Under the pieces are notes generated by a model. The model saw nothing but the letters and a program-made list of their open reading frames with translations. It was not told the origin of the DNA and ran no database searches. DNA of 53,418 nucleotides from Caldifarciminota bacterium (GTDB lineage: Bacteria; Hydrothermota; Tepidihabitantia; B3-TA06): assembly GCA_016934635.1 (NCBI GenBank), contig JAFGSK010000031.1, positions 1-53,418 on the forward strand. Direction: 5' to 3'. The position numbers and the translations under genes are program-made. Below are positions 15,951-48,940 of the stretch, piece after piece (within the stretch, counting starts at the first letter, position 1; the number at the start of each line of letters is the position of its first letter).

Positions 15951-16208
15951 ATGCAGCAGTCGGAACAGGAAGTAGCCAGCGTGAGACCCGTAAAAAAGCG
16001 CGAGAAGTGCAGTGAGAAAGCAGTTACAAAGAGAAGGGAAAGACACGACAAGATAGCCGTAATAGGTGCAGGACCGATAGCTCGGATTATATTTAAAGCT
16101 ATTCTGGGTGCGGTGGGTAAGTTGCATCTCACTCGTTTTTTCGAGACAGAAGAGGAAGCGTTTGTCTGGGTTAAGACAAAGGATGTTGTCAAAACCACTC
16201 AGGTTTAA
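15951..16208 (+). pseudogene. Orphan C-terminal half of a SpoIIAA-like array protein
   Basis: The 85-residue frame has a basic, unrelated-looking first 30 residues and then a clear array-family C-terminal half: KIAVIGAGPIARIIFKAI, then TRFFETEEEAFVWVK. The N-terminal strand block (MK-H/Y-x-x-x-F-D-E) and the D-L-S strand are missing. It lies upstream of the array's promoter region and is separated from it by 450 bp, so it is probably the decayed edge of an older, longer array. AAGGAGCGTT precedes the ATG, so a short protein could still be made. Confidence 0.7.
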
Positions 16209-16437
16209 AACAGATTTGGCGGCAGGCTAAGAGTTAGTTCCTTATAGTACCAGGTATAATTACCAGATTTACAACTCAAATTAAAATATCAAAAGAGACC
16301 GAAGTTGTGTAGGTTATTGCGGGTGTGGCGATTTCTAATTATACGAAAAGGTGTACGGATTCAGGACATCGTCGCGAGAGACTGATTGTACCGAAACCTT
16401 AATCGGTTGATATACAACAATAAAGAGAAGATGAAGT

Positions 16438-16453
16438 TGGCATGAAAATTGCT
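16438..16453 (+). promoter_or_regulatory. Sigma-54-type promoter upstream of the array
   Basis: TGGCATG-N4-TTGCT fits the -24/-12 consensus (TGGCAYR-N4-TTGCW) at every constrained position, with the GG and GC 12 bp apart. It points toward the array, with an expected start near 16465. No enhancer-binding activator gene is in the window. The rest of 16209-16603 has no gene other than the hairpin and leader listed separately. Confidence 0.6.
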
Positions 16454-16555
16454 ATATTAAGATTGAGTGTAATAGGGTACGATTCATAGCAAGGATAAGC
16501 TAGTGTATTAAGTGGGAAGAGAGGCCAGAAAGTAAAAAATCGTATAGATGAGTCA

Positions 16556-16586
16556 CGCCTATACTTGAATTAGGTAGGCGATTTTT
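16556..16586 (+). terminator. Terminator-like hairpin in the array leader
   Basis: The stem CGCCTA/TAGGCG (16556-16561 with 16575-16580) is followed by ATTTTT and then immediately by AAGGAGGA, the leader ORF's ribosome binding site. Lying between the promoter and the first genes, it may act as an attenuator or as the terminator of the upstream transcript. The stem is short. Confidence 0.45.
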
Positions 16587-16603
16587 AAGGAGGATTAGTT
16601 TTG

Positions 16604-16678
16604 ATGAAATACGCAACACCAACGAGGCATGATAGGAATAAGATCGAATCCTGGGTGATATGGAGACGAGAAGCGTGA
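16604..16678 (+). CDS. 24-residue leader ORF coupled to the first array gene
   Basis: ATG 16604 follows AAGGAGGA (16587-16594) at ideal spacing, the strongest ribosome binding site in the region. The frame encodes 24 residues (MKYATPTRHDRNKIESWVIW then RREA) and its TGA overlaps the GTG of the first array gene. The start MKY and the late tryptophans faintly recall the two ends of an array protein, so it may be a collapsed copy; otherwise it is a leader peptide that loads ribosomes onto the array. No homologue is recognised. Confidence 0.55.
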   Translation: MKYATPTRHDRNKIESWVIWRREA

Positions 16679-17043
16679 AACACGAACTGTATTTTGATGA
16701 GGAAAATGATCTCATTGTCCTAAGGATAAAAGGTCCGTTCAACCTCCAGGACGCGATGGAAACTACCGATAAAATGGATGAGCTTGGAAAGAACAAAAGA
16801 ACTATCTTGGTTATGGCGGATCTTAGAGAAGCACCGCCCTATCTGGATAAGGATGTACGTAAGCTGATGAAGGATCTTTCGATGAGAATGAAGATGGAAA
16901 AATTCGCAATGATAGTTACCAATCCTGCAGTCAGGATAATAGGAAAGATCGTTATTGCTACCATGGGAAACGCCAAGGGTTCAGCTTTTTTCAAGACCGA
17001 ATCCGAAGCTTTAGCCTGGTTAAAGGGAGGAAACTCTCGGTGA
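16675..17043 (+). CDS. SpoIIAA-like array protein 1
   Basis: 122 residues. It opens the array and shows the family plan: an N-terminal beta strand block (MKHELYFDEEN), a middle MADLRE strand where STAS antagonists carry their phospho-site loop, then FAMIVTNPAVRIIGKIV and a C-terminal FFKTESEALAWLKGG. That order is what I read as the SpoIIAA-like (STAS/SEC14) fold, a cytosolic protein-protein interaction module. No canonical D-S-S phospho-serine motif is present. Start GTG 16675 is chosen because MKHE is the conserved beginning and GGAGA sits 8 bp before it; the ATG at 16660 is upstream of the conserved region. The closest copy in the array is number 19. Confidence 0.85.
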   Translation: MKHELYFDEENDLIVLRIKGPFNLQDAMETTDKMDELGKNKRTILVMADLREAPPYLDKDVRKLMKDLSMRMKMEKFAMIVTNPAVRIIGKIVIATMGNAKGSAFFKTESEALAWLKGGNSR

Positions 17044-17102
17044 TGTTGAATTGTCTGGTTTGAGGATGAAAAACCCCTGATCCGTATGTAAGGAGAAAAT
17101 GA

Positions 17103-17483
17103 ATGGAAAAGTACATATTATCCTACGATGACAAGGACAACATCCTGTATCTGAAGATATTGGGTGTAATGGAAATCGAAAATATTCGTGAACTAATGCC
17201 ACGTTTCAATAAGATGTTCGAGGGGAAACCGCGTAGGTATGCGCTTGTAGATATGTCTGAAAGTGTTCAGATGGATACGAGCGTAATGACTAAAGAGATG
17301 CGTGACGCTTACAAGGAATTGGGCAATATGATGGATGCGGATAAAGCGGCTATAGTTGGGGCCACACCCGTACTTCGGATGATTGCCAAGATCGTCATTG
17401 CCATAACGAGGAGGGCAAAGACTACACAATTTTTCAAGACTAAGGAAGATGCAGTTTCCTGGATGAAAGGAGATAAAAATTGA
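17103..17483 (+). CDS. SpoIIAA-like array protein 2
   Basis: 126 residues, ATG with AGGAG 8-12 bp upstream after a 59-bp gap, the widest gap in the array. It belongs to the SYDDKD sub-group with numbers 6 and 10: VDMSESVQ strand, GATPVLRMIAKI and FFKTKEDAVSWMKGD. The D-M-S-E-S segment is the nearest thing in the family to a phosphorylatable STAS loop, but phosphorylation is only a possibility. The final AAAGGAGA codons serve as the ribosome binding site of the next gene. Confidence 0.85.
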   Translation: MEKYILSYDDKDNILYLKILGVMEIENIRELMPRFNKMFEGKPRRYALVDMSESVQMDTSVMTKEMRDAYKELGNMMDADKAAIVGATPVLRMIAKIVIAITRRAKTTQFFKTKEDAVSWMKGDKN

Positions 17484-17866
17484 AATATGAGATAAGGCTC
17501 GACAAGGAACATGGATTACTTCGTCTGATAATCTTTGAATCAATAGATAAGGAGAACGTAGACGAGATGATGCCCGCTATGGCGCGAGAACTTGACACAA
17601 TGACACGCCGATTAGTTCTCGTAGATATGAGTAACGATAAAAACTCAACCTCAATGACCAAGCGGGCGCGCAAGGCATACAAGGAACACGCGGCAGCTAT
17701 AAATACCGACAAGGTGGCCATGGTTGGTGCGAGTCCAATCACCCGCATGTTTGCAAAGATAGCCTTAGGTGTTATGGGAAAGTCGGAGCAAACGAGGTTT
17801 TTCAAGACCGAGGAAGACGCTCTTGCATGGCTGAAAGGAGATTATAAAGATGTGGAAAGTGGATAA
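17480..17866 (+). CDS. SpoIIAA-like array protein 3
   Basis: 128 residues, TTG start overlapping the preceding TGA (TTGA). Signature blocks: VDMSNDKNSTSMTKRARKAY, VGASPITRMFAKIA and FFKTEEDALAWLKGD. The tail DYKDVESG continues beyond the usual end and overlaps the next gene by 17 bp. There is no near-identical sibling in the window. Confidence 0.83.
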   Translation: MKYEIRLDKEHGLLRLIIFESIDKENVDEMMPAMARELDTMTRRLVLVDMSNDKNSTSMTKRARKAYKEHAAAINTDKVAMVGASPITRMFAKIALGVMGKSEQTRFFKTEEDALAWLKGDYKDVESG

Positions 17867-18245
17867 AAAAAGGAACGAGGCGACGCTCGATGAACATAAA
17901 CTTATCTATGATCCGCAAGAGAAGATAATGACTGTAAAGATGGTTAGTTCGATGAGTCTTGAGGAGCTTCTTGACGGTTGGAAGTTTATCGATGAAATGA
18001 CCAAGGATCTAGACAAGTATTGTTTCCTTGTTGATCTTACCGAGACAAAACCGGTATTCGATAAGGATTTTAGAGACTACCTACAAGGTAAGAACTCAGA
18101 TGAAAGGATATTAAAGATGGCAGTCGTCTTTTCCAATCCGGTGGTAAGGATGTTTGCCAGGGTTATGGCCAGTAAGAGGAAGAAAACCCCCACTGGATAT
18201 TTTAAAACCCGTGATGAAGCCCTGGCCTGGCTAAAAGAGAGGTAA
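17850..18245 (+). CDS. SpoIIAA-like array protein 4, N-terminally extended
   Basis: 131 residues with an extra basic N-terminus of about 16 residues (MWKVDKKRNEATLDEHK) before the first strand. ATG 17850 has GGAG 9 bp upstream within the preceding gene. The C-terminal half keeps SNPVVRMFARVM and YFKTRDEALAWLKER. The final Gly-Asp of the usual end is replaced by Glu-Arg, and the next gene begins one base after the stop. A VDLTETKP strand replaces VDMSES. Confidence 0.8.
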   Translation: MWKVDKKRNEATLDEHKLIYDPQEKIMTVKMVSSMSLEELLDGWKFIDEMTKDLDKYCFLVDLTETKPVFDKDFRDYLQGKNSDERILKMAVVFSNPVVRMFARVMASKRKKTPTGYFKTRDEALAWLKER

Positions 18246-18246
18246 A

Positions 18247-18627
18247 ATGAGGCACCATGTTTATTACGATGAAGAAAACGAGGTGGGCGTGGTCGAAGTG
18301 ATTGAGGAGTATACGGTTCAGGATGCAGATCAGACCTTCGATATCCTCGATGATTTATTCAAGAGTAAACCAGAAGATTACTATTACCTGCTTGTGGATC
18401 TTACCCGGGCTATCCAGACATTGAGTGGAACGGTTCGCAAGCAGATACAGAGGCGAAGCGAAAACCTTGATCTGAAAAGAATCGCGATGGTCGTTACCCA
18501 TCCTGCACCGAGGATGATCGGTAAGATGGTTGTTGCCGTAATGGGAAAGTCCGACAGCACTTCGTTCTTCAAGAAAAAGGAAGAGGCCCTTGAATGGCTT
18601 AAGGGAGATATAGAGAGGGATAAGTAA
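18247..18627 (+). CDS. SpoIIAA-like array protein 5
   Basis: 126 residues starting MRHHVYYDEENEV, close in its first 40 residues to numbers 22 and 31. Middle strand LVDLTRAIQ, then MVVTHPAPRMIGKMV and FFKKKEEALEWLKGD. ATG 18247 uses AGAGGTAA across the previous stop. A 30-bp gap with its own AAGGAG follows, one of only three real gaps in the array. Confidence 0.83.
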   Translation: MRHHVYYDEENEVGVVEVIEEYTVQDADQTFDILDDLFKSKPEDYYYLLVDLTRAIQTLSGTVRKQIQRRSENLDLKRIAMVVTHPAPRMIGKMVVAVMGKSDSTSFFKKKEEALEWLKGDIERDK

Positions 18628-18657
18628 ATTATACCTTGAAAGATAAGGAGCTATATC

Positions 18658-19035
18658 ATGAAATCGTACAATTTAACTTACGACGATAAAAGCGAAATCC
18701 TTAGCCTCAAGGTTCTGAGACCACTCGATAGAGAGGGACTGATCGATTTGGAGTTAGGTATTCAGAAACTTCTTAAAGGCAAACCTCTGCGTAATGTTCT
18801 TGTCGATATGACGGAAAGCGTTCAGTTCAGTACAGATTTTATGAACAAAGAGGTACGTAATTCATACAAGGTATTAATGGAACAGATGAACGTTGAAAAA
18901 TCTGCAATAGTTGGAGCTTCTCCTGTTATTCGTATGATTGCAAAGATTGCTATTTCAGTAAGCGGGAAATCGGATGTGAATAAATTTTTCGAAACCAGGG
19001 AAGAAGCCATGGCCTGGCTGAAAGGAGATAAGTGA
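18658..19035 (+). CDS. SpoIIAA-like array protein 6
   Basis: 125 residues of the SYDDK sub-group (with 2 and 10): LTYDDKSEILSLKVL, VDMTESVQFSTDFM, GASPVIRMIAKIA and KFFETREEAMAWLKGD. AAGGAG precedes ATG 18658 at normal spacing, so translation can restart here independently of gene 5. The final codons AAAGGAGATAA provide the ribosome binding site of gene 7. Confidence 0.84.
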   Translation: MKSYNLTYDDKSEILSLKVLRPLDREGLIDLELGIQKLLKGKPLRNVLVDMTESVQFSTDFMNKEVRNSYKVLMEQMNVEKSAIVGASPVIRMIAKIAISVSGKSDVNKFFETREEAMAWLKGDK

Positions 19036-19391
19036 GGTACAAGGTGTGGTTCGATAAGGAGAATCATATTGCCAGGACACAGATTATCAAATCTCTTACC
19101 GGGGAGGAGGCTAGAGGACTTATGACGGAGAAGGAAGAGCAACTCATTAATAACACCCGAACGGGGATTATGGATCTGTCGAATGCCGACAGCATCAGGA
19201 AGCTGAGTAAGGAAACGTACAGGAAGCACACTAATGAGCTTCCTCTCGACAAAGCGGCGGTAATAGTCGATTCATCCGTAATGAGGATGATTGCAAAGAT
19301 TTTTATCGCGGGTTTAGGTATGTCGAGTAAAACGAGGTCCGTAAAGTTGAATTACGAAGCATTGTCGAGATTTCAAGGAGGCAATGAATGA
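19032..19391 (+). CDS. SpoIIAA-like array protein 7, degenerate C-terminus
   Basis: 119 residues, GTG overlapping the previous TGA. The central DSSVMRMIAKIF signature is intact, but the usual FFKT-x4-AxxWLKG end is eroded to SVKLNYEALSRFQGG: both phenylalanines and the tryptophan are gone. The C-terminal GGAGGC codons still give the next gene a ribosome binding site, suggesting selection on translation coupling even when the protein end has drifted. Confidence 0.78.
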   Translation: MRYKVWFDKENHIARTQIIKSLTGEEARGLMTEKEEQLINNTRTGIMDLSNADSIRKLSKETYRKHTNELPLDKAAVIVDSSVMRMIAKIFIAGLGMSSKTRSVKLNYEALSRFQGGNE

Positions 19392-19762
19392 ACTACGAGT
19401 TACGCTTCGATAAAGAATGCAGTGCCGTGTATCTCAAGGTAATCACGATGCTAACCGATAAGGACGTACACGAGATGATGCCGGAAGCAGAAAAGATGTT
19501 CGACAATATGCTTGAAGGGAAAAAGCATGTTCTGGTTGACACGTCGCCTGATCCGCCGGGTATTCTGGACAAACCGGCACGCAAGGCTTTCAGAAAGTAT
19601 GTGCAGATGATGAAGGTCATAGATAAGATTGCCATATACGGGGCAAAGCCGATCGTACGCATGATGGCTCGAGCCGCAGCTGCAGCCCTGGGCAAGCTGA
19701 ATGCAACGAAATTCTTCGCAGGCAAAGAAGATGCGGTTCGCTGGCTGAAAGGAGACGCGTAG
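19388..19762 (+). CDS. SpoIIAA-like array protein 8
   Basis: 124 residues, ATG inside the preceding stop (ATGA). It belongs to the NYE-x-x-FD group that shares an ML-x-D-x-DV-x-x-MMP first helix with numbers 12, 17, 23, 28, 30 and 34. VDTSPDPPGILDKPARKAF is followed by YGAKPIVRMMARAA and KFFAGKEDAVRWLKGD. The Asp-x-Ser and PPG-x-L-x-K-x-AR run is the sub-group hallmark. Confidence 0.84.
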   Translation: MNYELRFDKECSAVYLKVITMLTDKDVHEMMPEAEKMFDNMLEGKKHVLVDTSPDPPGILDKPARKAFRKYVQMMKVIDKIAIYGAKPIVRMMARAAAAALGKLNATKFFAGKEDAVRWLKGDA

Positions 19763-19763
19763 C

Positions 19764-20126
19764 GTGAAGCACAATATCTACTACGATTCCGATTCACAAG
19801 TAGTCGTTATGCAGGTGATCGGGGAAGTGAATGCCGATGATGCAGCAATGATGATGGAGAAACTCTCCGGATTGTTGGCTAATAATTCAGGAACCAACAT
19901 CCTCGCCGACTTCAGACAAAGCCCGAATCTCAACCTGGACAGACAAAGCCGAGGCATCATTCAAAATGCAGCAAAGAAGTTCAAGTTCGGCAAAGCCGCT
20001 CTTGTCGGAGTCTCGCCGGTCACTCGAATGATTGCCAAGGTCATTCTGGCCGTTCTGGGCAAGATTGAGGAATCACGCTTCTTCAATGCTGAGGATGAAG
20101 CTCTTGCCTGGTTGAAAGGGGAATAA
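19764..20126 (+). CDS. SpoIIAA-like array protein 9
   Basis: 120 residues, GTG 19764 with GGAGACG 10 bp upstream inside gene 8. The hallmark is FRQSPNLNLDRQSRGIIQ, shared only with number 15, followed by VGVSPVTRMIAKVIL and RFFNAEDEALAWLKGE. The Asp-Leu-Ser of other copies is replaced by ADFRQSP. Confidence 0.84.
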   Translation: MKHNIYYDSDSQVVVMQVIGEVNADDAAMMMEKLSGLLANNSGTNILADFRQSPNLNLDRQSRGIIQNAAKKFKFGKAALVGVSPVTRMIAKVILAVLGKIEESRFFNAEDEALAWLKGE

Positions 20127-20130
20127 AACC

Positions 20131-20502
20131 ATGGACAAGTTCATTTTGTCTTATGACGATAAGGACCAAGTCCTTTACCTGAAAATACTGGGTTTGATGG
20201 ATAGTGAAGGACTGCGCGAGTTGTTACCTCGTTTTCAAAAACTGCTCGAAGGTAAGCCGCGCCGCTATGTCCTGGTCGACATGTCGGAAAGCGTCCAGCT
20301 CGATGCAAGTTTCATGACCAAAGAGCTGCGGAACTCATACAAGGAATTAATGAATCAGATGGATTCCGATAAAGGAGCTATAATAGGGGCCTCGCCTGCA
20401 TTGCGTATGATTGCCAAGATTGCCCTTGCCGTAAGTGGGAGGTCTGACACCACAAAATTTTTTAAAACAAAAGAGGAGGCACTTTGCTGGCTGAAGGAGT
20501 AA
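20131..20502 (+). CDS. SpoIIAA-like array protein 10
   Basis: 123 residues, ATG four bases after the previous stop, with GGGGA upstream. It is the closest sibling of number 2: LSYDDKDQVLYLKILG, VDMSESVQLDASFMTKELR, GASPALRMIAKIAL and KFFKTKEEALCWLKE. Separation of two near-copies by seven other family members shows that duplication was not simply one unit at a time. Confidence 0.84.
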   Translation: MDKFILSYDDKDQVLYLKILGLMDSEGLRELLPRFQKLLEGKPRRYVLVDMSESVQLDASFMTKELRNSYKELMNQMDSDKGAIIGASPALRMIAKIALAVSGRSDTTKFFKTKEEALCWLKE

Positions 20503-20504
20503 AG

Positions 20505-20885
20505 ATGGATCATAGATTGTATCTCGATGAAGAACAGGATGTTTTTCACATCCACATTGTGGGGGATATCACACCTGAGGGATACATCGCAATAAACAGG
20601 ACATACAATACATGGGAGGGCGGAAAACCAAAAAAAGTTATCATAGATCTTACCGAGACCAATATGTCGACCATGGTTCCGTGGGACCGTGAAACACGCC
20701 AGAGGGTAACCAAGTCAACCGAGCCATTTACATCGGATACCAAAGTTGCGGTGATCGGTGTGACCGGGATCTCTCGAATGGTTATGAAGATAGCGTTCAA
20801 CGTACTGGGAGTCGTGAAAACCGGACGCTTCTTCAAAACCGAAGCTGAGGCGCTGGCTTGGCTGAAAGAAGAAACGAAGCGATGA
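20505..20885 (+). CDS. SpoIIAA-like array protein 11
   Basis: 126 residues, ATG 20505 chosen over the in-frame TTG at 20484 because MDHRLYLDEEQ is the conserved beginning and AAGGAG lies 8 bp before it. IDLTETNMS strand, then VIGVTGISRMVMKIA, in which the usual proline of the P-x-x-R-M motif is isoleucine-preceded glycine, and RFFKTEAEALAWLKEE. Distant sibling of number 24. Confidence 0.82.
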   Translation: MDHRLYLDEEQDVFHIHIVGDITPEGYIAINRTYNTWEGGKPKKVIIDLTETNMSTMVPWDRETRQRVTKSTEPFTSDTKVAVIGVTGISRMVMKIAFNVLGVVKTGRFFKTEAEALAWLKEETKR

Positions 20886-21250
20886 ATTACACGATGCACT
20901 TCGATGAAGAGTACTGTGTACTTTACGTCAAAACCCTTGCGATGCTTACTGCTTCTGACGTACACCAACTCATGCCCGAGATGGACAAGGTTTTTGCGGA
21001 TAAACCTTGCAGATACGTAATCGGCGATTTATCCAGTAACCCACCCGGCCTATTAACAAAGGAGGCGCGTCAGGCGTTCAAGGAGCATGCAAAAGATTTC
21101 AAGATCGACAAGGGTGCAATCGTAGGTACGAATCACGCAACAAGGATGATTGCCAAGATAGCCATATCAATAATGGGTCTGTCGGAGATCGTGAAATTCT
21201 TCAAAACTGAGGGTGAAGCACTGAGTTGGTTTAAAGAAGGTGAACGATGA
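20882..21250 (+). CDS. SpoIIAA-like array protein 12
   Basis: 122 residues, ATG overlapping the previous TGA. It is in the MNY-x-x-x-FDEE sub-group with 17, 30 and 34: VLYVKTLAMLTASDVHQLM, GDLSSNPPGLLTKEARQAF, then GTNHATRMIAKIA, where the proline is replaced by Ala after His, and KFFKTEGEALSWFKEG. Confidence 0.83.
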   Translation: MNYTMHFDEEYCVLYVKTLAMLTASDVHQLMPEMDKVFADKPCRYVIGDLSSNPPGLLTKEARQAFKEHAKDFKIDKGAIVGTNHATRMIAKIAISIMGLSEIVKFFKTEGEALSWFKEGER

Positions 21251-21612
21251 AGCACGAGGTATGGCTTAACGAAGAAGAGGGAGTTCTCTTTGTCCGGTAT
21301 ATGGGCGACACAACGGTCGCTGATTACAGCGAAGTCAGTGATCGTGTTCTTAAGTTTACACCCGAACAAAGACTTATGACACTCGTTGATATGTTGGAGG
21401 CGAAGGTTCCGATGCTTGACCGTAAAAGCCGCAAAGCCATTGACGAAAGGGTTCAATCTCTCCTCCATGATAACGCAAGAGCCGCTATTGTGATAACTTC
21501 CCCGGTGATACGCATGATGACCAAGATTTTTCTTGGTACGGTCAAACAGAAAGTCGAGACGCGTATTTTTGCTGACCAAAGAGAAGCTTTGGTCTGGCTG
21601 AAAGGAGATTAG
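21247..21612 (+). CDS. SpoIIAA-like array protein 13
   Basis: 121 residues, ATG overlapping the previous TGA. It is near-identical over most of its length to number 33 at 29164: MKHEVWLNEEEGVLFVRY, RKAIDERVQSLLHDNARA, VITSPVIRMMTKIFLG and RIFADQREALVWLKGD. IFAD replaces the FFKT block. The pair is the clearest recent duplication in the locus, 8 kb apart. Confidence 0.84.
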   Translation: MKHEVWLNEEEGVLFVRYMGDTTVADYSEVSDRVLKFTPEQRLMTLVDMLEAKVPMLDRKSRKAIDERVQSLLHDNARAAIVITSPVIRMMTKIFLGTVKQKVETRIFADQREALVWLKGD

Positions 21613-21614
21613 CA

Positions 21615-22010
21615 ATGAAATATGAAATACTTACACCTGATGGGACACTACGGCATGAGATCTTCTACAATACTGAGTTTGAAGCGGCCTATATTGTACA
21701 CTACGATCGAGTGAATGCCGATGATGCACGTCAAATCATCGATTCCGTGGCTGAGCTTCTTGAAGGAAAGAAGCATCGGTACATGGTGGACGATATATCG
21801 AGGGTATCCATGACGAAGCTCGACAAGGAAACACGAGCGGTATTCGCAAAAGCTGGTGAAAAGATCCAGCTTGAAAAGATAGCTATGATCGGTGCTGATC
21901 CTATGACCAGAATGATGTCTAAGGTTGTGGTAGCACTTACGGGCGAAGCGAAAAGGACCAAATTCTTCAGAACCGAACAAGAAGCCCTTGCCTGGCTAAA
22001 AGGAGTATAG
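21615..22010 (+). CDS. SpoIIAA-like array protein 14
   Basis: 131 residues with about ten extra residues (MKYEILTPDGTLRH) before the first strand, which may itself be a fused second family start since RHEIFYN also looks like one. VDDISRVSMTKLDKETRAVF, IGADPMTRMMSKVVV and KFFRTEQEALAWLKGV. AAAGGAGATTAGCA before ATG 21615 comes from the end of gene 13. Confidence 0.82.
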   Translation: MKYEILTPDGTLRHEIFYNTEFEAAYIVHYDRVNADDARQIIDSVAELLEGKKHRYMVDDISRVSMTKLDKETRAVFAKAGEKIQLEKIAMIGADPMTRMMSKVVVALTGEAKRTKFFRTEQEALAWLKGV

Positions 22011-22012
22011 AA

Positions 22013-22384
22013 ATTAAGCACAGTATCCATTTCGATTCCGACTTAAGAGCTATGGTTCTAAAGATCGTCGGTAATTTTACGTGTGAAGATGCAACAGAGA
22101 CCCTGAAGAAAGCCGAGGGATTATTAGGGACTAATCCAGGAATGAATGTACTTGCCAATTTTTCACGGAGTCCTAATCTTATCCTTGATCGAGAAACCAG
22201 GCGAATCATCCAGAAGGGAGCACCGAAGTTTGAGTTTCAAAAGGTGGCTTTAATAGGTGTTTCGCCTGTAACGCGGATGATTGCCAAGGTTATCTTGGTA
22301 ATCCTGGGCAAGGTAAAGGAATCACATTTCTTCGAAACCGAGGAAGAAGCCATTACCTGGTTGAAAGGAACCATTGAAAAATGA
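22013..22384 (+). CDS. SpoIIAA-like array protein 15, apparent ATT start
   Basis: 123 residues if translation begins at ATT 22013. The frame then reads (I/M)KHSIHFDSDLRAMVLKIVG, aligning from the first residue with number 9 (MKHNIYYDSDSQ). GGAG at 22001-22004 is 8 nt before the ATT, the usual array spacing. The first ATG (22052) would remove the whole first strand. ATT is a rare but real bacterial start, known from infC; the alternative is a mutated start with poor expression. Later blocks: FSRSPNLILDRETRRIIQ, IGVSPVTRMIAKVIL and HFFETEEEAITWLKG. Confidence 0.75.
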   Translation: MKHSIHFDSDLRAMVLKIVGNFTCEDATETLKKAEGLLGTNPGMNVLANFSRSPNLILDRETRRIIQKGAPKFEFQKVALIGVSPVTRMIAKVILVILGKVKESHFFETEEEAITWLKGTIEK

Positions 22385-23491: not shown

Positions 23492-23526
23492 GAATGCCAT
23501 GTACTTGTTGAATAGGGATATGTAGC

Positions 23527-28321: not shown

Positions 28322-28356
28322 GGCACGAAATACCGAACTATGAGAAGGTTAACTAA
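28318..28356 (+). pseudogene. 12-codon N-terminal remnant of an array gene
   Basis: ATG 28318 overlaps the preceding TGA and the frame reads MRHEIPNYEKVN then TAA, an array-type beginning (compare MRHHVYYDEENEV) cut short. It ends 2 bp before the RsbR-like ATG, so ribosomes ending on gene 31 would be carried to the regulator. Best read as the stump of a deleted copy kept or tolerated as a bridge. Confidence 0.6.
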
Positions 28357-28358
28357 TA

Positions 28359-29006
28359 ATGACAAAAGAAATGGAAAAAGGGATCAAGAAAATTGACAGG
28401 CGTGTCGAGGCGGTCGAGGAGGTTCTTGCCGCGGCCGCAGGCGGCGACTTCGATGTCCAGATAGAGACTGATGCCGGATCGCCCGACATCTTCTCTTCGG
28501 TGGAGAAGGGCATAAACCTTTTGATCTCCGATCTTGGGGAAGAGATGCGTAACAGTCAGCAGCGTGCCTCGGAGCTCCAGGAGAAACTCGATCTAATTGA
28601 GAGGCAGCGTCAAGCTATAGAAGAACTCTCTACGCCCATCATCAAGATATGGGACCAGGTCCTAGTTCTTCCTCTTATCGGTACCCTCGACACGCGACGT
28701 TCACAGAAGCTGACCGAAAGCCTTTTAACGGATATTGCCGTAAATCAGACCAAGGTTGCCATCCTGGATATAACCGGTGTTCCGGCGGTGGACTCGGCGG
28801 TTGCCAACCACCTTTTAAAAACCGTGGCTTCCATCAAACTCCTGGGCGCCGAGTGCGTGGTTACAGGAATACGGCCCGATGTAGCACAGACCATAGTCCA
28901 TCTCGGGGTGGATCTGAGTGATGTTGAAACGCTCGCAAACCTTTCAGAAGGTCTCAAGCTGGCGTTTAGTCGTTTTCATCTTGAGATGAAAAAGGCGGAG
29001 TCATGA
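28359..29006 (+). CDS. RsbR-like STAS co-antagonist 1
   Basis: 215 residues. Residues about 15-70 look like a HAMP-type linker (VLAAAAGGDFDVQIE, EKGINLLISDLGEE), followed by a coiled coil (about 70-95) and a RsbR-type STAS domain (about 98-205). That domain has PLIGTLDTRRSQKL, LDITGVPAVDSAVANHLL and GAECVVTGIRPDVAQTIVHLGVDL, the classic stressosome core signature. The residues where RsbT phosphorylates RsbR are Thr in LDT and Ser in VDS. The N-terminus lacks the globin or PAS sensor often found in RsbR. Its ATG is 2 bp after a remnant ORF, GAGAAGG upstream. RsbR proteins form the stressosome scaffold with RsbS and bind RsbT. Confidence 0.9.
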   Translation: MTKEMEKGIKKIDRRVEAVEEVLAAAAGGDFDVQIETDAGSPDIFSSVEKGINLLISDLGEEMRNSQQRASELQEKLDLIERQRQAIEELSTPIIKIWDQVLVLPLIGTLDTRRSQKLTESLLTDIAVNQTKVAILDITGVPAVDSAVANHLLKTVASIKLLGAECVVTGIRPDVAQTIVHLGVDLSDVETLANLSEGLKLAFSRFHLEMKKAES

Positions 29007-29167
29007 AAAACATGAGTCCTAAGGTTTCGAGGAGTCCAGAGATTGGAGCAGATCCTTCCATACGCATGATTACCAAGACAGCACTTACAATCGTGTTCTG
29101 CGACCATATTGCAAATCTCTTCTCATCCGAAGCGGATGGACTTAACTGGTTGAAAGGTGAACAATGA
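29003..29167 (+). pseudogene. 54-residue C-terminal half of an array protein
   Basis: ATG 29003 overlaps the RsbR-like stop, and TGA 29165-29167 overlaps the next ATG. The frame reads IGADPSIRMITKTALTI and then NLFSSEADGLNWLKGE, so it is the back half of an array protein with the signature kept and the first two strands deleted. Coupling on both sides is intact. Confidence 0.75.
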
Positions 29168-29532
29168 AGCACGAGGTTTGGCTTAATGAAGACGAGGGTG
29201 TTCTCTTTGTCCGGTATAAGGGCGACATAACGGTTGCCGATTACGGCGAGGTTAGTGATCGAGTTCTCGAGTTTTCTCCCGAACAAAGACTTCTGACACT
29301 CGTGGACATGTCGGAAGCAAAGGTTTCTGCTCTTGATCGTAAAAGCCGTGCAGCCATAGATGAAAGGGTTCAGTCTCTCCTCCATGATAATGCAAGAGCC
29401 GCTATTGTGATTACTTCTCCAGTGATACGCATGATGACCAAGATATTTTTGGGCACAGTCAAGCAGAAGGTCGAGACTCGTATATTCGCCGACACGAATG
29501 AGGCTCTTGCATGGCTGAAAGGAGAGAAGTGA
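29164..29532 (+). CDS. SpoIIAA-like array protein 33
   Basis: 122 residues, ATG overlapping the previous TGA. A near-copy of number 13: MKHEVWLNEDEGVLFVRYKG, VDMSEAKVSALDRKSRAAI, VITSPVIRMMTKIFLG and RIFADTNEALAWLKGE. Here the middle strand is VDMSEAK where number 13 has VDMLEAK, so this copy keeps the serine. It stands between the two RsbR-like genes. Confidence 0.85.
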   Translation: MKHEVWLNEDEGVLFVRYKGDITVADYGEVSDRVLEFSPEQRLLTLVDMSEAKVSALDRKSRAAIDERVQSLLHDNARAAIVITSPVIRMMTKIFLGTVKQKVETRIFADTNEALAWLKGEK

Positions 29533-29906
29533 ATACCGACGCTTTTAAGATGTGGTTCAACGAGGAGCATGGGATTCTTTACGTTAAGACTTACAAGACC
29601 ATTGATGCCGAGGACATCCACCAACTTATACATCAGGTTGAGAAGGCATTTGAGGGGAGACCACGGCGTTACATACTCGGTGACCTTTCCGAAAATCCCT
29701 CCGACCCCCTGACCAAAGAAGCCAGACAAGCCTTCAAAGAATACTCAGATTCCATTACCTATGACCGAATCGCCGTCATCGGTGTGAACCCGTTCACGAG
29801 GATGGTTGTAAAGATAGCGATAAAGATAATCGGGCAATCAGAGAAGACCCGATTTTTTAAATCTGAGGAAGAGGCTTTAAATTGGTTTAAGGAGGATAGA
29901 TCATGA
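29529..29906 (+). CDS. SpoIIAA-like array protein 34
   Basis: 125 residues from GTG 29529, overlapping the previous TGA. A near-copy of number 17: MNTDAFKMWFNEEHGILYVK, GDLSENPSDPLTKEARQAF, IGVNPFTRMVVKIAI and RFFKSEEEALNWFKED. The 33-34 junction reproduces the 16-17 junction although 33 derives from a different sub-group, which implies recombination at gene borders. Confidence 0.85.
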   Translation: MNTDAFKMWFNEEHGILYVKTYKTIDAEDIHQLIHQVEKAFEGRPRRYILGDLSENPSDPLTKEARQAFKEYSDSITYDRIAVIGVNPFTRMVVKIAIKIIGQSEKTRFFKSEEEALNWFKEDRS

Positions 29907-30139
29907 ACCAGGTAAAGAGTATTAAGAATTTGGGCAGGCGTCTGGAGATGATGGAAAGGGTTATTTCGGACGCAGCTGGGGGTAACCTTTATGCCCGGAT
30001 ACCTTTGGATCGAACGAATTTCGATCGGCTTACTGTTGTAGAAATTGGTATCAATCTAATCATTTCTGATCTTGAAACTGAGACTTCAAGCATGCTGAAT
30101 ATGGCTGAACAACTTATGGAGTTGAGTAAGGAAAAATGA
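29903..30139 (+). pseudogene. RsbR-like N-terminal domain without STAS
   Basis: 78 residues matching only the first part of the two RsbR-like proteins: MERVISDAAGGNLYARIPLD, VVEIGINLIISDLETE and a short coiled-coil start, then TGA. The whole STAS domain is missing. ATG overlaps the stop of array protein 34, with AAGGAGG upstream. Either a truncated third RsbR or a deliberate stand-alone HAMP/coiled-coil protein that could mix with the full ones. Confidence 0.7.
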
Positions 30140-30234
30140 ACCTTAGAAAAGAACAAGGAAGTACCGGAAGCTTTTTTAGATACCGGTATTTTAGACAGAG
30201 GAAGAAACACTGGATGAAAGGAGTAACCAATTGA
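30136..30234 (+). pseudogene. 32-residue remnant resembling an array C-terminus
   Basis: ATG 30136 overlaps the preceding TGA and the TGA 30232-30234 overlaps the next TTG. The product ends FFRYRYFRQRKKHWMKGVTN, a worn version of TRFFKTKEEALAWLKGV. Its AAAGGAG codons still provide the next gene's ribosome binding site. Confidence 0.45.
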
Positions 30235-30631
30235 AGAATCAGGTTTATCTTGATGAAGCCAACCTAGACATGCGTCAGAAGCTGATTGACGAGGACATCC
30301 ATAAAGAAGCCGCGGAATTTTTTCCCGAGAAGCTCAAGTGGCTCGATCTACTTCCTCATCGACATACCGTTCTTGATCAAGAAGAGGCAACGAATGCGAT
30401 CTTGAGCCGTGAGACTCGTGAAAAGATGGTTGATTATAATTTACTTTTAGGTTTCGAGAGACTGGTCTATGTAGGTGACGCATCCGCTGTAAAATTAACG
30501 ACTAATATTTTAAGTGAAATCGCCTTAAGAAGATATGAAGATGATAGTGACGTTGAATTTTTTTAAAATCTGTAGAGGATGCAGTCTCTTGGATAAATAC
30601 CGGAGAAAAAGAAACTGATGGGGTTGCATAA
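30231..30631 (+). pseudogene. Array-family gene with frame break at a T7A4 run
   Basis: TTG 30231 begins MKNQVYLDEANLDM, and the zero frame stops at 30566 after 111 residues, right at the FF of the family end. In the -1 frame the missing end continues exactly: KSVEDAVSWINTGEKE to TAA 30629-30631. The break lies in TTTTTTTAAAA (30558-30568). The VGDASAVKLTTNILSEI signature is also divergent. Either a pseudogene by indel, or a site of polymerase or ribosome slippage. 30632-30759 has only the ribosome binding site of the next gene. Confidence 0.7.
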
Positions 30632-30759
30632 AATCAACGGAGAGTATAATTACTGCAGGTATACTTTCCTGACAAGTATTCCGACTCATCCTTTTTGGGA
30701 AGGAAACATAACGGAGATCGGGTTAATCGTCCGATTTCTGAATAATAAAGGAGAAAAAC

Positions 30760-31428
30760 ATGGCAGAAGCCAAAAAAGGTAAGGATAAAGAAGTGGGCGT
30801 TAAGAACATGGAGAAGCGTATCGAGACCATCGAGGAGGTCCTTGCCGCAGCGGCTGGCGGTGATTTCTCGGCCGAGATCCCTATTGCGATGGAAGACGCT
30901 GATGTACTCACATCGGTGGAAACAGGGATTAATTTACTCATCTCCGATCTGGGTGACGAGGTACGACAAAGCCAGGCAAGGGCTGACGAACTACAGGAAA
31001 AATTAGATTTGATCGAGAAACAGCGTGAAGCCATTGAAGAGCTTTCCACCCCAATCATCAAGATTTGGGATCAGGTATTGGTTCTACCTTTGATAGGAGC
31101 CTTGGATACCCGACGTTCACAGAAGCTAACCGAAAACCTTTTGACAGAGATTTCCGGAACTCAAAGCAAGGTTGCTATCATGGATATTACCGGTGTGCCT
31201 ACTGTGGATTCCGCAGTTGCTAATCATATACTTAAAACCGTAGCCTCAGTTAAACTCTTGGGTGCCGAGTGTATCATTACCGGGATTCGCCCTGATGTGG
31301 CTCAAACCATTGTTCATTTAGGCGTGGACCTTACTGATGTGGAAACTCTGTCTAACCTGTCAGAAGGATTGAAATGGGCATTTAATAACCTTCGCCTTAG
31401 CTTTGGGGAAGGAGAAAAGGGAAAATGA
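30760..31428 (+). CDS. RsbR-like STAS co-antagonist 2
   Basis: 222 residues, paralogue of the gene at 28359 with the same order: a HAMP-like linker (VLAAAAGGDFSAEIPIA, TGINLLISDLGDE), a coiled coil to about 95 and a STAS domain with PLIGALDTRRSQKLTENLL, MDITGVPTVDSAVANHIL and GAECIITGIRPDVAQTIVH. AAAGGAG precedes ATG 30760 by 8 bp. Its TGA overlaps the RsbS-like ATG, giving the order RsbR-RsbS-RsbT seen in classical stressosome operons. The N-terminus is again too short for a ligand-binding sensor, so input must come from partners. Confidence 0.92.
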   Translation: MAEAKKGKDKEVGVKNMEKRIETIEEVLAAAAGGDFSAEIPIAMEDADVLTSVETGINLLISDLGDEVRQSQARADELQEKLDLIEKQREAIEELSTPIIKIWDQVLVLPLIGALDTRRSQKLTENLLTEISGTQSKVAIMDITGVPTVDSAVANHILKTVASVKLLGAECIITGIRPDVAQTIVHLGVDLTDVETLSNLSEGLKWAFNNLRLSFGEGEKGK

Positions 31429-31865
31429 TTAACCCTAATTCCATACCGATCCTTAAACTCAAAGAGTTTCTCATCGTCTCTATCCAAACCGATCTACACG
31501 ATCGGATGGCTGAACAACTACAACACGATATCCTGAGACGTGTATCCGAAACCAGCGCTAAGGGGGTCCTTATCGATATTTCAGCCTTAGAGATGGTGGA
31601 TTCATTCATAGGTCGAACCCTAGCGGATACGGCTCGAATGGCTTCCATTCTTGATGCTGAGATAGTGATTGTCGGTATGAAACCCGCAGTGGCTATCACC
31701 CTAGTTGAGTTGGGTTTATCGCTTGGGGAAGTGAGAACTGCTTTGAACCTTGACGAAGGATACGAGATGCTTCAGAAAAGCCTTGCTCTGACGGATATGG
31801 AAGGTGAAGAGACCTCTGAGGAAGCTCTCGCGGAAGAGGCTTCTGATGACGATAGTAGAGATTAA
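31425..31865 (+). CDS. rsbS: RsbS-like STAS antagonist 1
   Basis: 146 residues: a single STAS domain beginning SIPILKLKEFLIVSIQTDLHD, as in RsbS, with the phospho-acceptor segment DISALEMVDSFIGRTLAD (Ser in VDS), then VIVGMKPAVAITLVELGL. RsbS holds RsbT in the stressosome until RsbT phosphorylates it. After about residue 122 there is an acidic tail (EGEETSEEALAEEASDDDS) that its paralogue at 32599 lacks. The 3' end overlaps the RsbT-like gene by 20 bp. Confidence 0.92.
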   Translation: MINPNSIPILKLKEFLIVSIQTDLHDRMAEQLQHDILRRVSETSAKGVLIDISALEMVDSFIGRTLADTARMASILDAEIVIVGMKPAVAITLVELGLSLGEVRTALNLDEGYEMLQKSLALTDMEGEETSEEALAEEASDDDSRD

Positions 31866-32238
31866 GGAAGAATCTGATATAGTTCGTGCACGCGCCGCAG
31901 CTAAAGAGGTAGCCGCGGTAGTGGGTTTTGGTCTAGTAGATCAAACCAGAATCAGCACTGCAGTTTCGGAACTGGCTCGCAATATTTTTATGTATGCAGG
32001 AGAAGGCGAGGTCCGAATAGAGGAGATAAACGTTCCTCAACGGGGGATTCGTGTTTATTTCCTGGACCAGGGACCTGGTATACAGGATGTGGATTTGGCG
32101 TTAATGGATGGATGGTCAACTTCCAACAGCATGGGTAAGGGTCTACCTGGAGTGAAAAGATTGATGGACCGTTTGGAGATTCAAACTGAATTAGGATCAG
32201 GAACCACTGTCGTTATCGAGAAGTGGGTTAGAGATTAA
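31846..32238 (+). CDS. rsbT: RsbT-like serine kinase 1
   Basis: 130 residues, GHKL ATPase fold kinase that would phosphorylate RsbR and RsbS and then activate a downstream phosphatase. N-box SELARNIFMYA, G1 box LDQGPGI and G2 box SMGKGLPGVKRLM are complete. Start ATG 31846 fits the family beginning (VEIKEESDIVRAR) and a GAAGAGG about 8 bp upstream; the longer frame to 31804 lies in rsbS. 32239-32598 downstream has no gene I can support. Confidence 0.93.
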   Translation: MTIVEIKEESDIVRARAAAKEVAAVVGFGLVDQTRISTAVSELARNIFMYAGEGEVRIEEINVPQRGIRVYFLDQGPGIQDVDLALMDGWSTSNSMGKGLPGVKRLMDRLEIQTELGSGTTVVIEKWVRD

Positions 32239-32598
32239 TGGGGAGTGGTTTTAGCATATCGGTTATACTGTTTTTAAATAGTAGAACGAAGGCTATAAAC
32301 TAACGACAAGGAACAGATATGAAGCAGAGATTTGAATTTTATGAAAAGCCGTGGGATATTAGTAACAGGATTGGATTCCTAATGGATTGAAGGATATTCT
32401 TGAGACGGTGGAAGACGATTAAAGTGAAGGTTATTGACTCTACGACACTAAGCCATATACTAAGCCCAATGACTCCAATGAAGTTTCTAGAGGAGGAGTG
32501 GTTGAATTACTTATTAGCTTGCGAGCTTACGAGTAGGAATTTATCTGAAGCGCATAAAGCAGAATCTAGAAGAAAAAAGCCGATTCAGGGAGTCCAAA
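32239..32598. other. Gap between the two RsbS/RsbT pairs, nothing recognised
   Basis: A 24-codon frame (ATG 32320, MKQRFEFYEKPWDISNRIGF) and a 70-codon frame from 32400 exist but show no family features. The gap may be the scar of a lost RsbR gene, because an RsbR precedes the other RsbS/RsbT pair. It supplies GGGAG before the next TTG. Confidence 0.4.
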
Positions 32599-32991
32599 TT
32601 GCTTCAAAGTAGTGCAATCCCGATACTCAAGATCGGTGATTTTTTGCTTGTTTCGATTCAGTACGATATTCATGATAAAATAGCGGAGTTGCTTCAGCAG
32701 GATATTTTGAAGCGTATCTCTGAAACTCAAGCAAAGGGTGTTCTGGTCGATATCTCTGCACTCGAGACTGTGGATTCATTCATCGCTCGTTCTCTTGCTG
32801 ATACGGCTGCGATGGCTTCCATTCTTGATGCGGAGCTTATAATTGTTGGGATGTCACCTACGGTAGCAACCACCTTGACAGAGCTCGGACTAACCATGGC
32901 AGGCGTAAGGGCGGCAGTGAATCTTGATGAAGGCTACGATCTTCTTAAGGCAAGTTTGGGACAAAGGGTAGTAGATCGAAGGAATCGGTAA
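32599..32991 (+). CDS. rsbS: RsbS-like STAS antagonist 2
   Basis: 130 residues, paralogue of the gene at 31425: SAIPILKIGDFLLVSIQYD, DISALETVDSFIARSLAD with the phospho-acceptor Ser, and IIVGMSPTVATTLTELGL. TTG 32599 with GGGAG 6 bp upstream. It lacks the acidic tail of the first copy and ends in a basic VVDRRNR. A second RsbS/RsbT pair implies two parallel or mixed signalling complexes. Confidence 0.92.
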   Translation: MLQSSAIPILKIGDFLLVSIQYDIHDKIAELLQQDILKRISETQAKGVLVDISALETVDSFIARSLADTAAMASILDAELIIVGMSPTVATTLTELGLTMAGVRAAVNLDEGYDLLKASLGQRVVDRRNR

Positions 32992-33016
32992 AATATGCTG
33001 AAGAAAGGGCCATTCG

Positions 33017-33406
33017 ATGGAAGTTATTCCGATTAAGGAAGAATCTGATATTGTCAGAGCACGAGTTGCCGCGAAAGATATGGCGCAAAAGATGGGTTTT
33101 GGGTTAGTGGATCAGACGCGTATAAGCACAGCGGTTTCGGAACTTGCCAGAAACGTGTTTGTGTATGCTAGGGAAGGTCAGGTTCATCTCGAAGTGTTAA
33201 ACAATCCCCATAATGGGATTCGTATAACATTCATAGATCAGGGACCCGGTATTCCGGATATAGATTTGGCGATGAAGGATGGTTGGTCCTCATCAGGGAG
33301 TATGGGTAAAGGACTGCCCGGGGCAAAACGATTAATGAATAGGCTGGAGGTAAAGTCTGAAGCAGGGAAAGGAACAACCGTAATAATCGAGAAATGGCTG
33401 TCATGA
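33017..33406 (+). CDS. rsbT: RsbT-like serine kinase 2
   Basis: 129 residues: IPIKEESDIVRARVAAKDM, N-box SELARNVFVYA, G1 IDQGPGI and G2 SMGKGLPGAKRLMN. All ATP-binding boxes are intact. AAGGGCC upstream of ATG 33017 is a weak ribosome binding site in a 25-bp gap. Its TGA overlaps the start of the fused HATPase-phosphatase gene. Confidence 0.93.
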   Translation: MEVIPIKEESDIVRARVAAKDMAQKMGFGLVDQTRISTAVSELARNVFVYAREGQVHLEVLNNPHNGIRITFIDQGPGIPDIDLAMKDGWSSSGSMGKGLPGAKRLMNRLEVKSEAGKGTTVIIEKWLS

Positions 33407-34410
33407 ACAAGGATAGTGGAGAGCTTCATATAGAGGTGGATGCCCATGTTCTTTGGGCGAGAGGTGTAGTGAGACGTTTTGCAGAAAAGCTCGGATTTCC
33501 GGAACAGATACTTTCCGAGATTGAACTCTGCATATCCGAATTAGCAACCAATCTGGTTGTCCACAACGCGAAGAATGGGAAGATAAGCTTCCGCGAGGTA
33601 AACGAGAACGGGCTGCGAGGTATTGAAATCATTGTAAAAGATGAGGGTCCCGGAATCAAGGATTTACAAGGAGCCCTTCAGGGCGGGGCAAGTACTTCGG
33701 GTTCGCTGGGACAGGGATTGGCGTCGGTACAGCGATTTGCGGATGAATTCGAGATTCACTCCAACGCGGAGGGAACGAGGGTCAGATTAAGAAGGTATCT
33801 GCCAGCCGAAGCGGACGCCGCAGATGCCGAACATACCGATCTGGTTGTAAGCGTTTCGGTGCGTACCCATCCAGAGGCAAATGTCTGCGGTGACGGACAC
33901 GTGATCCGTCACGACGGAGCGCGCACGCTCCTGGCAGTCGTCGACGGTCTTGGACACGGCGAAAGGGCGCGTAAAGCGGCTGGAATAGTCGAGGCCTATC
34001 TGCATGCCAATTACCGCAAGTCCCTTGACCAGCTGCCCCAGGAACTGCACAACTTCCTCAGGCACACTCGCGGCGCAGTAGTCGGGATTGCACGGATAGA
34101 TGAATCAGCAAAACAAATTAATTTTGTAGGCCTGGGTAATATAAGCGCCCGACTCTGGTTACCTGAAGAAAAGTCTTGGGTTCGGGCTGTATCCATGAGT
34201 GGAACCCTGGGGGTAAGTTTTCGTCCTCCCCGGATATTCTCTTATCCCTGGAAAAAAGGGAGTATGCTCATTATGCACTCAGACGGCATTACCGAGCGCT
34301 GGGAACTTACAACCGACCAACGTAGACAGCATCCAACAGAAATAGCACGAAATCTGATGAAGTCCTATTGGCGTAAGTCCGATGATGCAACTATAATGGT
34401 CGCCAGGTGA
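33403..34410 (+). CDS. Fused RsbT/SpoIIAB-type ATPase and SpoIIE/RsbX-type phosphatase
   Basis: 335 residues. Residues 1-135 are a GHKL ATPase: N-box CISELATNLVVHNA, G1 VKDEGPGI and G2 SLGQGLASVQRFAD. Residues about 150-335 are a PP2C-type SpoIIE phosphatase: LAVVDGLGHGERA (metal Asp and DGxGHG), LIMHSDGITERW and SDDATIMVA. In stressosome systems RsbX removes the phosphates RsbT puts on RsbR/RsbS, and here the reset phosphatase is joined to an ATPase domain. I start at ATG 33403, which overlaps the rsbT stop, rather than 33394. Its own stop overlaps the next GTG. Confidence 0.9.
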   Translation: MNKDSGELHIEVDAHVLWARGVVRRFAEKLGFPEQILSEIELCISELATNLVVHNAKNGKISFREVNENGLRGIEIIVKDEGPGIKDLQGALQGGASTSGSLGQGLASVQRFADEFEIHSNAEGTRVRLRRYLPAEADAADAEHTDLVVSVSVRTHPEANVCGDGHVIRHDGARTLLAVVDGLGHGERARKAAGIVEAYLHANYRKSLDQLPQELHNFLRHTRGAVVGIARIDESAKQINFVGLGNISARLWLPEEKSWVRAVSMSGTLGVSFRPPRIFSYPWKKGSMLIMHSDGITERWELTTDQRRQHPTEIARNLMKSYWRKSDDATIMVAR

Positions 34411-34805
34411 TAGAATTAACATTCTCTCGAACCGGGATTTGCAAGATATCGCTCGAAGGGTTACCTAAACCTTCCGAGATAGAAGGTTTGATTGAATCGT
34501 ACGTGAGAGAAGTTGAACTTTTACCCTATCCCTTGCGCGTGATCTTGTTAGATATATCCAAACTCGTTCACATGCAGGTTCGTTCACGCAAGACCTTTGC
34601 CGAGCTTTTAATTGAGGCTTCCCGGCATTATTCAGAAAATCTCGTGGTAGTAATCGCCGGAGGACCTCCAATGATCCGCAAGTTCACCGAGATTATGTGT
34701 AAGGCGAGTAAGTTTGCCGATAACATCTACTCTTTCTCCTCGTTAAATGAAGCCAAGGACTGGGCAAGGGATTGGTTGAGTAAAGAGGTTTCCTCGTCTG
34801 CGTGA
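34407..34805 (+). CDS. Array-family outlier closing the stressosome operon
   Basis: 132 residues, GTG overlapping the phosphatase stop. It has the family layout without the close sequence: IELTFSRTGICKISLEG strand, LLDISKLVHMQVRSRKTFAE (Asp-Ile-Ser), VVVIAGGPPMIRKFTEIM where the array has GA-x-P-x-x-R-M-x-x-K, and a NIYSFSSLNEAKDWARDWL end matching FFKT-x-EEA-x-x-WL. This looks more like the canonical SpoIIAA-like STAS/SEC14 protein and may be the ancestor-type member. Gene order after the phosphatase suggests it is part of the core module. Confidence 0.75.
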   Translation: MIELTFSRTGICKISLEGLPKPSEIEGLIESYVREVELLPYPLRVILLDISKLVHMQVRSRKTFAELLIEASRHYSENLVVVIAGGPPMIRKFTEIMCKASKFADNIYSFSSLNEAKDWARDWLSKEVSSSA

Positions 34806-48788: not shown

Positions 48789-48940
48789 ATGACTCCTTTT
48801 TTACCCCATAAAAGCGCTGCTCGCTTTTGTGAAGATCCCAATTTCTTGCCCAACAATAATTGCAGAGTTCTTACGAACAGAGCGTGCTTTGAAGGAAATC
48901 CCAAGAATTACTGGGATATCTAATCCTTTCCTAGTTTTCA

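Follow-up and report, generated by a model that had tools for sequence, protein, structure and literature searches.

We examined a stretch of 53,418 nucleotides (contig JAFGSK010000031.1 of assembly GCA_016934635.1, Caldifarciminota bacterium; hereafter the window), which carries a long array of SpoIIAA-like genes beside stressosome genes. Positions are those of the whole stretch unless another contig or locus is named; the genome is referred to as G000 and the contig of the window as C52. Using a profile built from the copies themselves, we found 33 near-full-length SpoIIAA-like copies on the forward strand between 16660 and 29906, of which 31 follow one another without interruption (16660–28321) and two lie further downstream (29164–29532 and 29511–29906). 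Three partial copies were also located by profile search (15999–16178, 29021–29161 and 30237–30521). An earlier note on this DNA, made from the sequence alone, had described at least 31 consecutive intact genes on one strand with two more intact copies and several remnants interleaved, and this description holds. It had also started the array at 15951, where SpoIIAA-like sequence is indeed present, but the open reading frame (ORF) at 15951–16208 is a remnant which keeps only the C-terminal half of the domain (profile match 61–119 of 122). The copies stand before and among two rsbR, two rsbS and two rsbT genes and a gene for a HATPase-SpoIIE fusion, all of which the earlier note had recognised downstream and all of which we could place at 28359–34410.

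The uninterrupted run consists of copies 1 (16660–17043), 2 (17103–17483), 3 (17480–17866), 4 (17850–18245), 5 (18247–18627), 6 (18658–19035), 7 (19032–19391), 8 (19388–19762), 9 (19764–20126), 10 (20131–20502), 11 (20484–20885), 12 (20858–21250), 13 (21247–21612), 14 (21615–22010), 15 (22013–22384), 16 (22381–22746), 17 (22725–23123), 18 (23120–23491), 19 (23527–23892), 20 (23868–24251), 21 (24251–24646), 22 (24643–25005), 23 (25002–25367), 24 (25346–25732), 25 (25708–26112), 26 (26109–26513), 27 (26479–26850), 28 (26847–27215), 29 (27212–27589), 30 (27586–27963) and 31 (27953–28321). Copies 2, 10, 26 and 30, the four covered by the Pfam scan, all passed the cut-off of the SpoIIAA-like family PF11964 (30.5–37.7 bits against 25), while the other 29 were placed by their match to the array profile. 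In copy 15 an ATT takes the place of the ATG, GTG or TTG start of the other copies, which makes its start uncertain; a start at its next ATG (22052) would remove 13 residues.

Downstream of the run lie an RsbR-like gene with a HAMP-like N-terminus, a linker helix and a STAS domain (28359–29006; STAS 57.4 bits, placed also by tree), a SpoIIAA-like remnant (29021–29161; profile match 74–120 of 122), copy 32 (29164–29532), which is a close paralog of copy 13, and copy 33 (29511–29906). These are followed by a gene for a lone HAMP-like protein of 78 amino acids without a STAS domain (29903–30136), an intact gene which is missing from the otherwise sound inventory of the earlier note, and by a degenerate SpoIIAA-like copy (30237–30521; 30.4 bits, 3–97 of 122). 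The second RsbR-like gene (30760–31428; HAMP-like N-terminus, and STAS by Pfam) is followed by RsbS (31425–31865; STAS, Pfam), an RsbT-like serine kinase (HATPase_c_2) at 31846–32238, the start of which was picked by similarity (the longest ORF runs from 31804), a second RsbS (32599–32991; by alignment), a second RsbT 70% identical to the first (33017–33406; by profile), the HATPase-SpoIIE fusion (33394–34410; Pfam) and a 132-aa protein (34407–34805). The last has no Pfam hit and a place which is conserved in relatives, and is possibly a distant SpoIIAA-like relative. All these genes are on the forward strand.

RsbR with its STAS domain, RsbS and the RsbT-type HATPase adjoin one another as a predicted stressosome module. 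Ser151 is invariant and Thr174 is kept in at least 90% of the 43 aligned RsbR rows, and Asp59-Ser60 is invariant in the 17 aligned RsbS rows; we take these sites to be equivalent to the B. subtilis phosphoacceptors T171/T205 and S59. A model of the RsbR at 30760–31428 (mean predicted local distance difference test, pLDDT, 75.8) has a helix at 17–32, a connector and a long helix at 49–95, and its top structural match is the Listeria innocua stressosome complex (7b0u). The HATPase-SpoIIE fusion is the sole SpoIIE-domain match in G000, which is 90.7% complete.

An assembly artefact or repeat was ruled out as the source of the array because the longest exact direct repeat in 15900–30200 is 35 nt, the closest pair of copies has 88% protein identity and the median identity between window copies is 29%. 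Gene junctions in the window are mostly overlaps or gaps of a few bases. Among the loci examined, a ribosome-binding core lies within the last codons of the upstream gene at 58 of 77 tight junctions, compared to 39 of 91 copies without a close neighbour. The codons of the C-terminal LKG are biased in tight junctions, with AAA used for Lys in 34/37 cases (636/1592 Lys codons elsewhere) and GGA for Gly in 29/37 (260/884 Gly codons elsewhere). The WLKG motif which the earlier note had listed as part of the shared protein plan is therefore present, but it is partly a translation signal, a ribosome-binding site in the LKG codons which had been overlooked. These patterns in the DNA suggest that translation of the array is coupled. 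Junctions such as those at 19737, 27186 and 27925, comprising the WLKGD codons, the ribosome-binding site and the start, are among the longest DNA shared by distant copies, and such shared DNA may favour recombination between copies. Scans for promoter-like sites (23 vs 28.9 in shuffles) and terminator-like sites (24 vs 18.8 in shuffles, sd 3.9) showed no clear signal.

The earlier note had expected a SpoIIAA/STAS-type fold, and the structure prediction run on one copy agrees with this. The AlphaFold2 model of copy 30 (mean pLDDT 90.9) matches SpoIIAA, RsbS and solved SpoIIAA-like proteins and has their alpha/beta fold; other structural matches were CtpA/CtpB proteases and SLC26 STAS domains (VIA-align). 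Two of the 33 copies were scanned with the NCBIfam model spore_II_AA and neither reached its cut-off (17.4 bits against 114.75 for one, no hit for the other). Numbering residues by copy 30, Arg63, Arg88, Lys92, Asp49 and Trp116 are near-constant across copies, and Met89 is shared by most of them. We also chose the 30 positions which are most kept within cross-genome pairs yet differ between copies: 13 fall on helices alpha-1 to alpha-3 (27, 30, 31 and 34 on alpha-1; 62, 66, 69, 70 and 72 on alpha-2; 87, 90, 94 and 97 on alpha-3), 8 on strands and 9 in loops, and 12 of the 13 helix positions fall on single faces. From these two sets of positions we infer a variable interior with shared docking residues. 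The report on the solved SpoIIAA-like proteins describes a resemblance to CRAL-TRIO/SEC14-type proteins and a large hydrophobic cavity between alpha-2 and alpha-3, which in one crystal was occupied by MPD molecules (PMC2954212).

To place the array among its relatives we used the eight genomes of its WOR-3 family (f1), in which G001 is of the same genus as G000, G002 is of another genus and five belong to genus g3. There are 21 reciprocal-best pairs between G000 and G001 and 22 between G000 and G002; some pairs of low identity may be non-orthologous, and 34 pairs among the three genomes remain when at least 50% identity is required. In the window these include copies 1, 19, 21, 22 and 32, with partners in G002 (78%, 64%, 68%, 79% and 86% identity), and copy 4, with a partner in G001 (83%). 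The ratio of non-synonymous to synonymous substitution rates (dN/dS), by a simple counting method, was 0.06–0.30 in the 15 of 43 reciprocal-best pairs with unsaturated dS. The tree of SpoIIAA-like proteins omits partial copies and holds 164 rows, of which 156 are near-full copies and 8 are relatives of the 132-aa gene; 77 of its 161 inner branches are well supported, a modest proportion because the protein is short. Recent tandem duplication was rejected for most copies because they interleave in the tree with copies of other genomes.

G000 has 81 SpoIIAA-like matches, fragments included, on six contigs. RsbR, RsbS and RsbT lie directly downstream at four of these six loci (C52, C18, C4 and C74), and all RsbT matches of G000 sit at these four. 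G001 and G002 have 36 and 38 SpoIIAA-like matches respectively, and the five g3 genomes 2–4 each. In g3 one type of locus holds one or two SpoIIAA-like genes with RsbR, RsbS and RsbT; another holds RsbS, RsbT, the HATPase-SpoIIE fusion and the 132-aa gene, and in those stretches which extend far enough a lipoate-ligase-like gene (named by eye) comes next. In G007 (C72) the whole order, from SpoIIAA-like genes through to the 132-aa gene, stands at one locus. The full order also occurs at G002 C95, where there are 3 full copies, and in the window, where there are 33, and both run into the lipoate-ligase-like gene. We read the window array as an expansion of a module which has one or two copies elsewhere. 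Across the eight genomes 110 of the 156 near-full copies are in loci with rsb genes, and 16 of the 46 copies outside are on two short G001 contigs which hold little else. The arrays therefore adjoin partner-switching genes, as had been proposed, and are not found mostly away from them.

Of 147 genomes searched across the phylum, 13 have SpoIIAA-like matches, including the 8 of family f1. In another family (f34, G138; L062 6146–9902) four tandem SpoIIAA-like genes lie between CheY-like regulators, the last of which overlaps the beginning of a gene for a histidine kinase that matches HAMP weakly, while copies in L065–L067 have no evident signalling neighbour. A scan of genome contigs for RsbR gave 11 loci, 4 of them from WOR-3/Stahlbacteria and 7 being other stressosomes; in the stretches fetched for these 7 loci of other phyla (L055–L061), a small sample, no SpoIIAA-like gene was found.

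Linkage is closest to one kind of RsbR. In family f1, each of the 18 HAMP-type RsbR genes whose N-terminus is intact is preceded on the same strand, at a distance of 41–474 bp, by a SpoIIAA-like gene or remnant, although the nearest such piece is partial in 3 of the 18 and on C18 a lone HAMP-like gene intervenes. The same 18 genes were used for the RsbR tree; the one on G001 C15 is cut at its 3' end, and an RsbR at the edge of G001 C137 was left out of both the tree and the count. In G000 itself, HAMP-type RsbRs are linked to copies in 6/6 cases and assessable RsbRs without a HAMP match in 0/4, three of the latter being on C13 and one on C49 (Fisher P = 0.002 if a fifth, the fourth C13 gene, which is cut by the contig edge, is included; 1/210 without it). 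The C13 locus (L069 272–5132) has three consecutive long RsbR-like genes; in the one that was scanned, TPR repeats precede the STAS domain. Five further RsbR-like proteins (P0076, P0078, P0090, P0144 and P0145) are probably from one contig of 125,824 bases, possibly another multi-RsbR locus. A SpoIIAA-like copy lies upstream at 13 of the 16 RsbT loci of the eight genomes, and one of the remaining loci is at a contig edge. The RsbR tree has two classes with full support (one row of the small class is on a long branch and was flagged by the program). The small class comes from C4, G002 C28 and G001 C307 and is a clade by itself in the RsbR tree; the SpoIIAA-like tree likewise has a separate clade of 16 copies, all of which are from these three loci. 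On G001 C307 both RsbR classes lie side by side, each behind copies of its own class.

Lone HAMP-like proteins are encoded within or beside the arrays by six intact ORFs of 76–79 codons; one of these is in G001 and the others are in G000, where C1 and C18 have two each and the window has one. They match residues 1 to about 84 of RsbR and stop there. A database search returned 13 proteins of this kind at E ≤ 0.001, 4 of them from G000 and 1 from G001. An origin as RsbR pseudogenes was rejected because the six intact ORFs end alike and 13 such proteins are in the database. Selection on these genes is poorly measurable, as in each of the 15 pairs dS either was saturated or exceeded 1.3. Of 23 segments searched with Pfam HAMP, 2 gave weak matches at E up to 1 (best E 8.1e−4). 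The HAMP assignment of RsbR N-termini and lone proteins is transitive because profile A4 and Pfam HAMP share a segment: the former matches G000 C43:54646–54840 at 4.9e−10 and the latter matches the same segment itself (protein E 5.3e−15).

The reading which we favour, at a probability of slightly under one half, is that the copies are a repertoire of separate input proteins which dock on the HAMP-like domain of RsbR and so bring many signals to one RsbT output. Each copy would bind a small ligand of its own, probably a hydrophobic one, in the cavity known from the solved relatives, and the residues kept in nearly all copies, including Arg63, Arg88 and Lys92, would form a common docking face. 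Docking would shift the helices of the RsbR HAMP domain and linker, much as the sensor and linker helices shift in the Listeria stressosome, and would alter the activity or release of RsbT; the signal would pass from the HAMP domain along the linker helix and reach the STAS core and RsbT. Movement of the linker helix is described for the Listeria innocua complex (PMC9237128). The lone HAMP-like proteins may act as adaptors or dampers by mixing with the HAMP domain of RsbR, and the HATPase-SpoIIE protein may reset or relay phosphorylation. We hold more tentatively, at well below even odds, a fuller version, a plug-in stressosome in which an old repertoire of about 80 small SpoIIAA-like receptors per genome, each with its own ligand and all with one docking face, would act via HAMP-type RsbR and lone HAMP adaptors.

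It should be noted that several results weigh against the favoured reading. On C1, an array of 19 full copies with two lone HAMP-like genes occupies a contig in which no rsb gene was found, C83 has two copies and no rsb genes, and the RsbT loci of G005 C143 and G006 C60 are without an upstream copy. Single f1 copies adjoin a NarL-type response regulator and a very long PAS protein (L041 7921–9310 and L032 2356–3568; by eye), and the family therefore also serves non-stressosome systems. These copies, like those beside the L062 kinase, do fit a role as input modules, whereas those of L065–L067 do not. Pfam HAMP reached its cut-off in 0/6 lone proteins and gave any hit in 1/6, and the RsbR model has a predicted template modelling score (pTM) of 0.49 with a low-confidence stretch at 95–100, between the helix and the STAS domain. 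The copy-specific positions could reflect core packing and not a ligand pocket. Both linkage and pairing may stem from a locus inherited as a unit, and therefore support a cassette without proving contact. In the tree, the mates of the single copies of L041 and L032 are in L044, L046, L048 and L050.

The copies may instead be effectors or carriers of hydrophobic ligands which are merely co-transcribed, and thus the output or cargo of the stressosome and not its input. The C1 array would suit this explanation, and the closest solved relatives have been proposed to carry nonpolar molecules at the membrane (PMC2954212). We nevertheless think it unlikely, as linkage is specific to HAMP-type RsbR (18/18) and does not extend to the other assessable RsbRs of G000, and as some copies in other families of the phylum, those of L065–L067 excepted, lie in operon-like runs with response regulators and kinases.

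It is quite unlikely that the copies are phospho-switched antagonists or decoys of RsbT or the HATPase-SpoIIE protein, their number setting a threshold, like RsbV/SpoIIAA with RsbW/SpoIIAB. The fold is the same as in those antagonists, and the best Foldseek E-values for copy 30 were to SpoIIAA bound to its kinase SpoIIAB. However, the putative phosphoacceptor, which is equivalent only to within a few residues owing to a loop gap which makes the hhalign placing ambiguous, is Ser/Thr in only 12 of the 33 window copies, Asp/Glu in 16 and another residue in 5; for all 156 copies the numbers are 48, 68 and 40 (other or gap). Glu or Asp replaces this serine in the majority of members of the family of the solved relatives too, according to their description (PMC2954212). 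A decoy would need dose, and not 33 versions, many of them with partners in other genomes. Between the two roles offered by the earlier note, a repertoire of partners or sensors and a decoy or titration system, the first is thus favoured by the diverged copies, the reciprocal-best partners and the purifying selection. Decoy and decay are both unlikely explanations of the array in view of the divergence of its copies, the partners which many of them have in other genera, and the purifying selection seen wherever it could be measured.

We regard as very doubtful a mosaic scaffold in which the copies are extra STAS-type subunits inside the stressosome core, since the array and RsbS profiles align only weakly (hhalign probability 10%, E 0.0032) and G000 has far more copies than it has RsbR and RsbS genes. 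A neutral origin of the array, as a by-product of tandem duplication, is highly improbable and largely refuted by the dN/dS values of the 15 measurable pairs and the 21–22 reciprocal-best pairs, even though the three window remnants and partial copies at other loci show turnover.

The Bacillus, Listeria and Vibrio stressosomes have in common with the window an RsbR with a STAS domain, an RsbS with the invariant Asp-Ser, an RsbT-like kinase and the same gene order. They differ in that the RsbR of the window has a HAMP-like N-terminus and not a globin, haem-globin or LOV domain, and in that up to 33 intact SpoIIAA-like genes and lone HAMP-like genes adjoin the module here. In B. subtilis, RsbRA–RD and YtvA are likewise several sensors which feed one complex (PMC9765535, PMC9237128), but that variety is in sensor domains fused to RsbR, whereas here it would lie in separate small proteins. 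The solved members of PF11964 (2OOK, 2Q3L and 3BL4) were described as proteins of unknown function and possible carriers (PMC2954212); here the family has expanded into a repertoire which goes with rsb genes. Searches of listings of open-access papers turned up no account of SpoIIAA-like arrays beside a stressosome. The gene families are known; what appears to be new, as far as those searches go, is a large, diverged and selected SpoIIAA-like repertoire tied to HAMP-type stressosome operons and lone HAMP-like genes. Signal reception by Bacillus-type stressosomes is called an open question in two papers (PMC4976288, PMC9237128). If our proposal is true, the inputs of this stressosome are separate soluble proteins encoded alongside it in many natural versions, and input specificity is therefore testable copy by copy. 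Sensing would then be encoded by gene arrays instead of fused sensor domains, and the SpoIIAA-like domain family, in which the solved members are without a known function, would gain a suggested role.

Other genes of the window were named by eye. Upstream of the array are a 1310-aa protein which looks like a nucleotide-cyclase/ATPase/TPR regulator (4843–8775) and a 795-aa TPR protein with a CHAT-like C-terminus (9204–11591). A tyrosine-recombinase-like integrase ORF on the minus strand (48992–50062) overlaps a tRNA-Arg (cct) gene (48940–49015), and an integrase which overlaps a tRNA gene is the usual edge of an integrated element.

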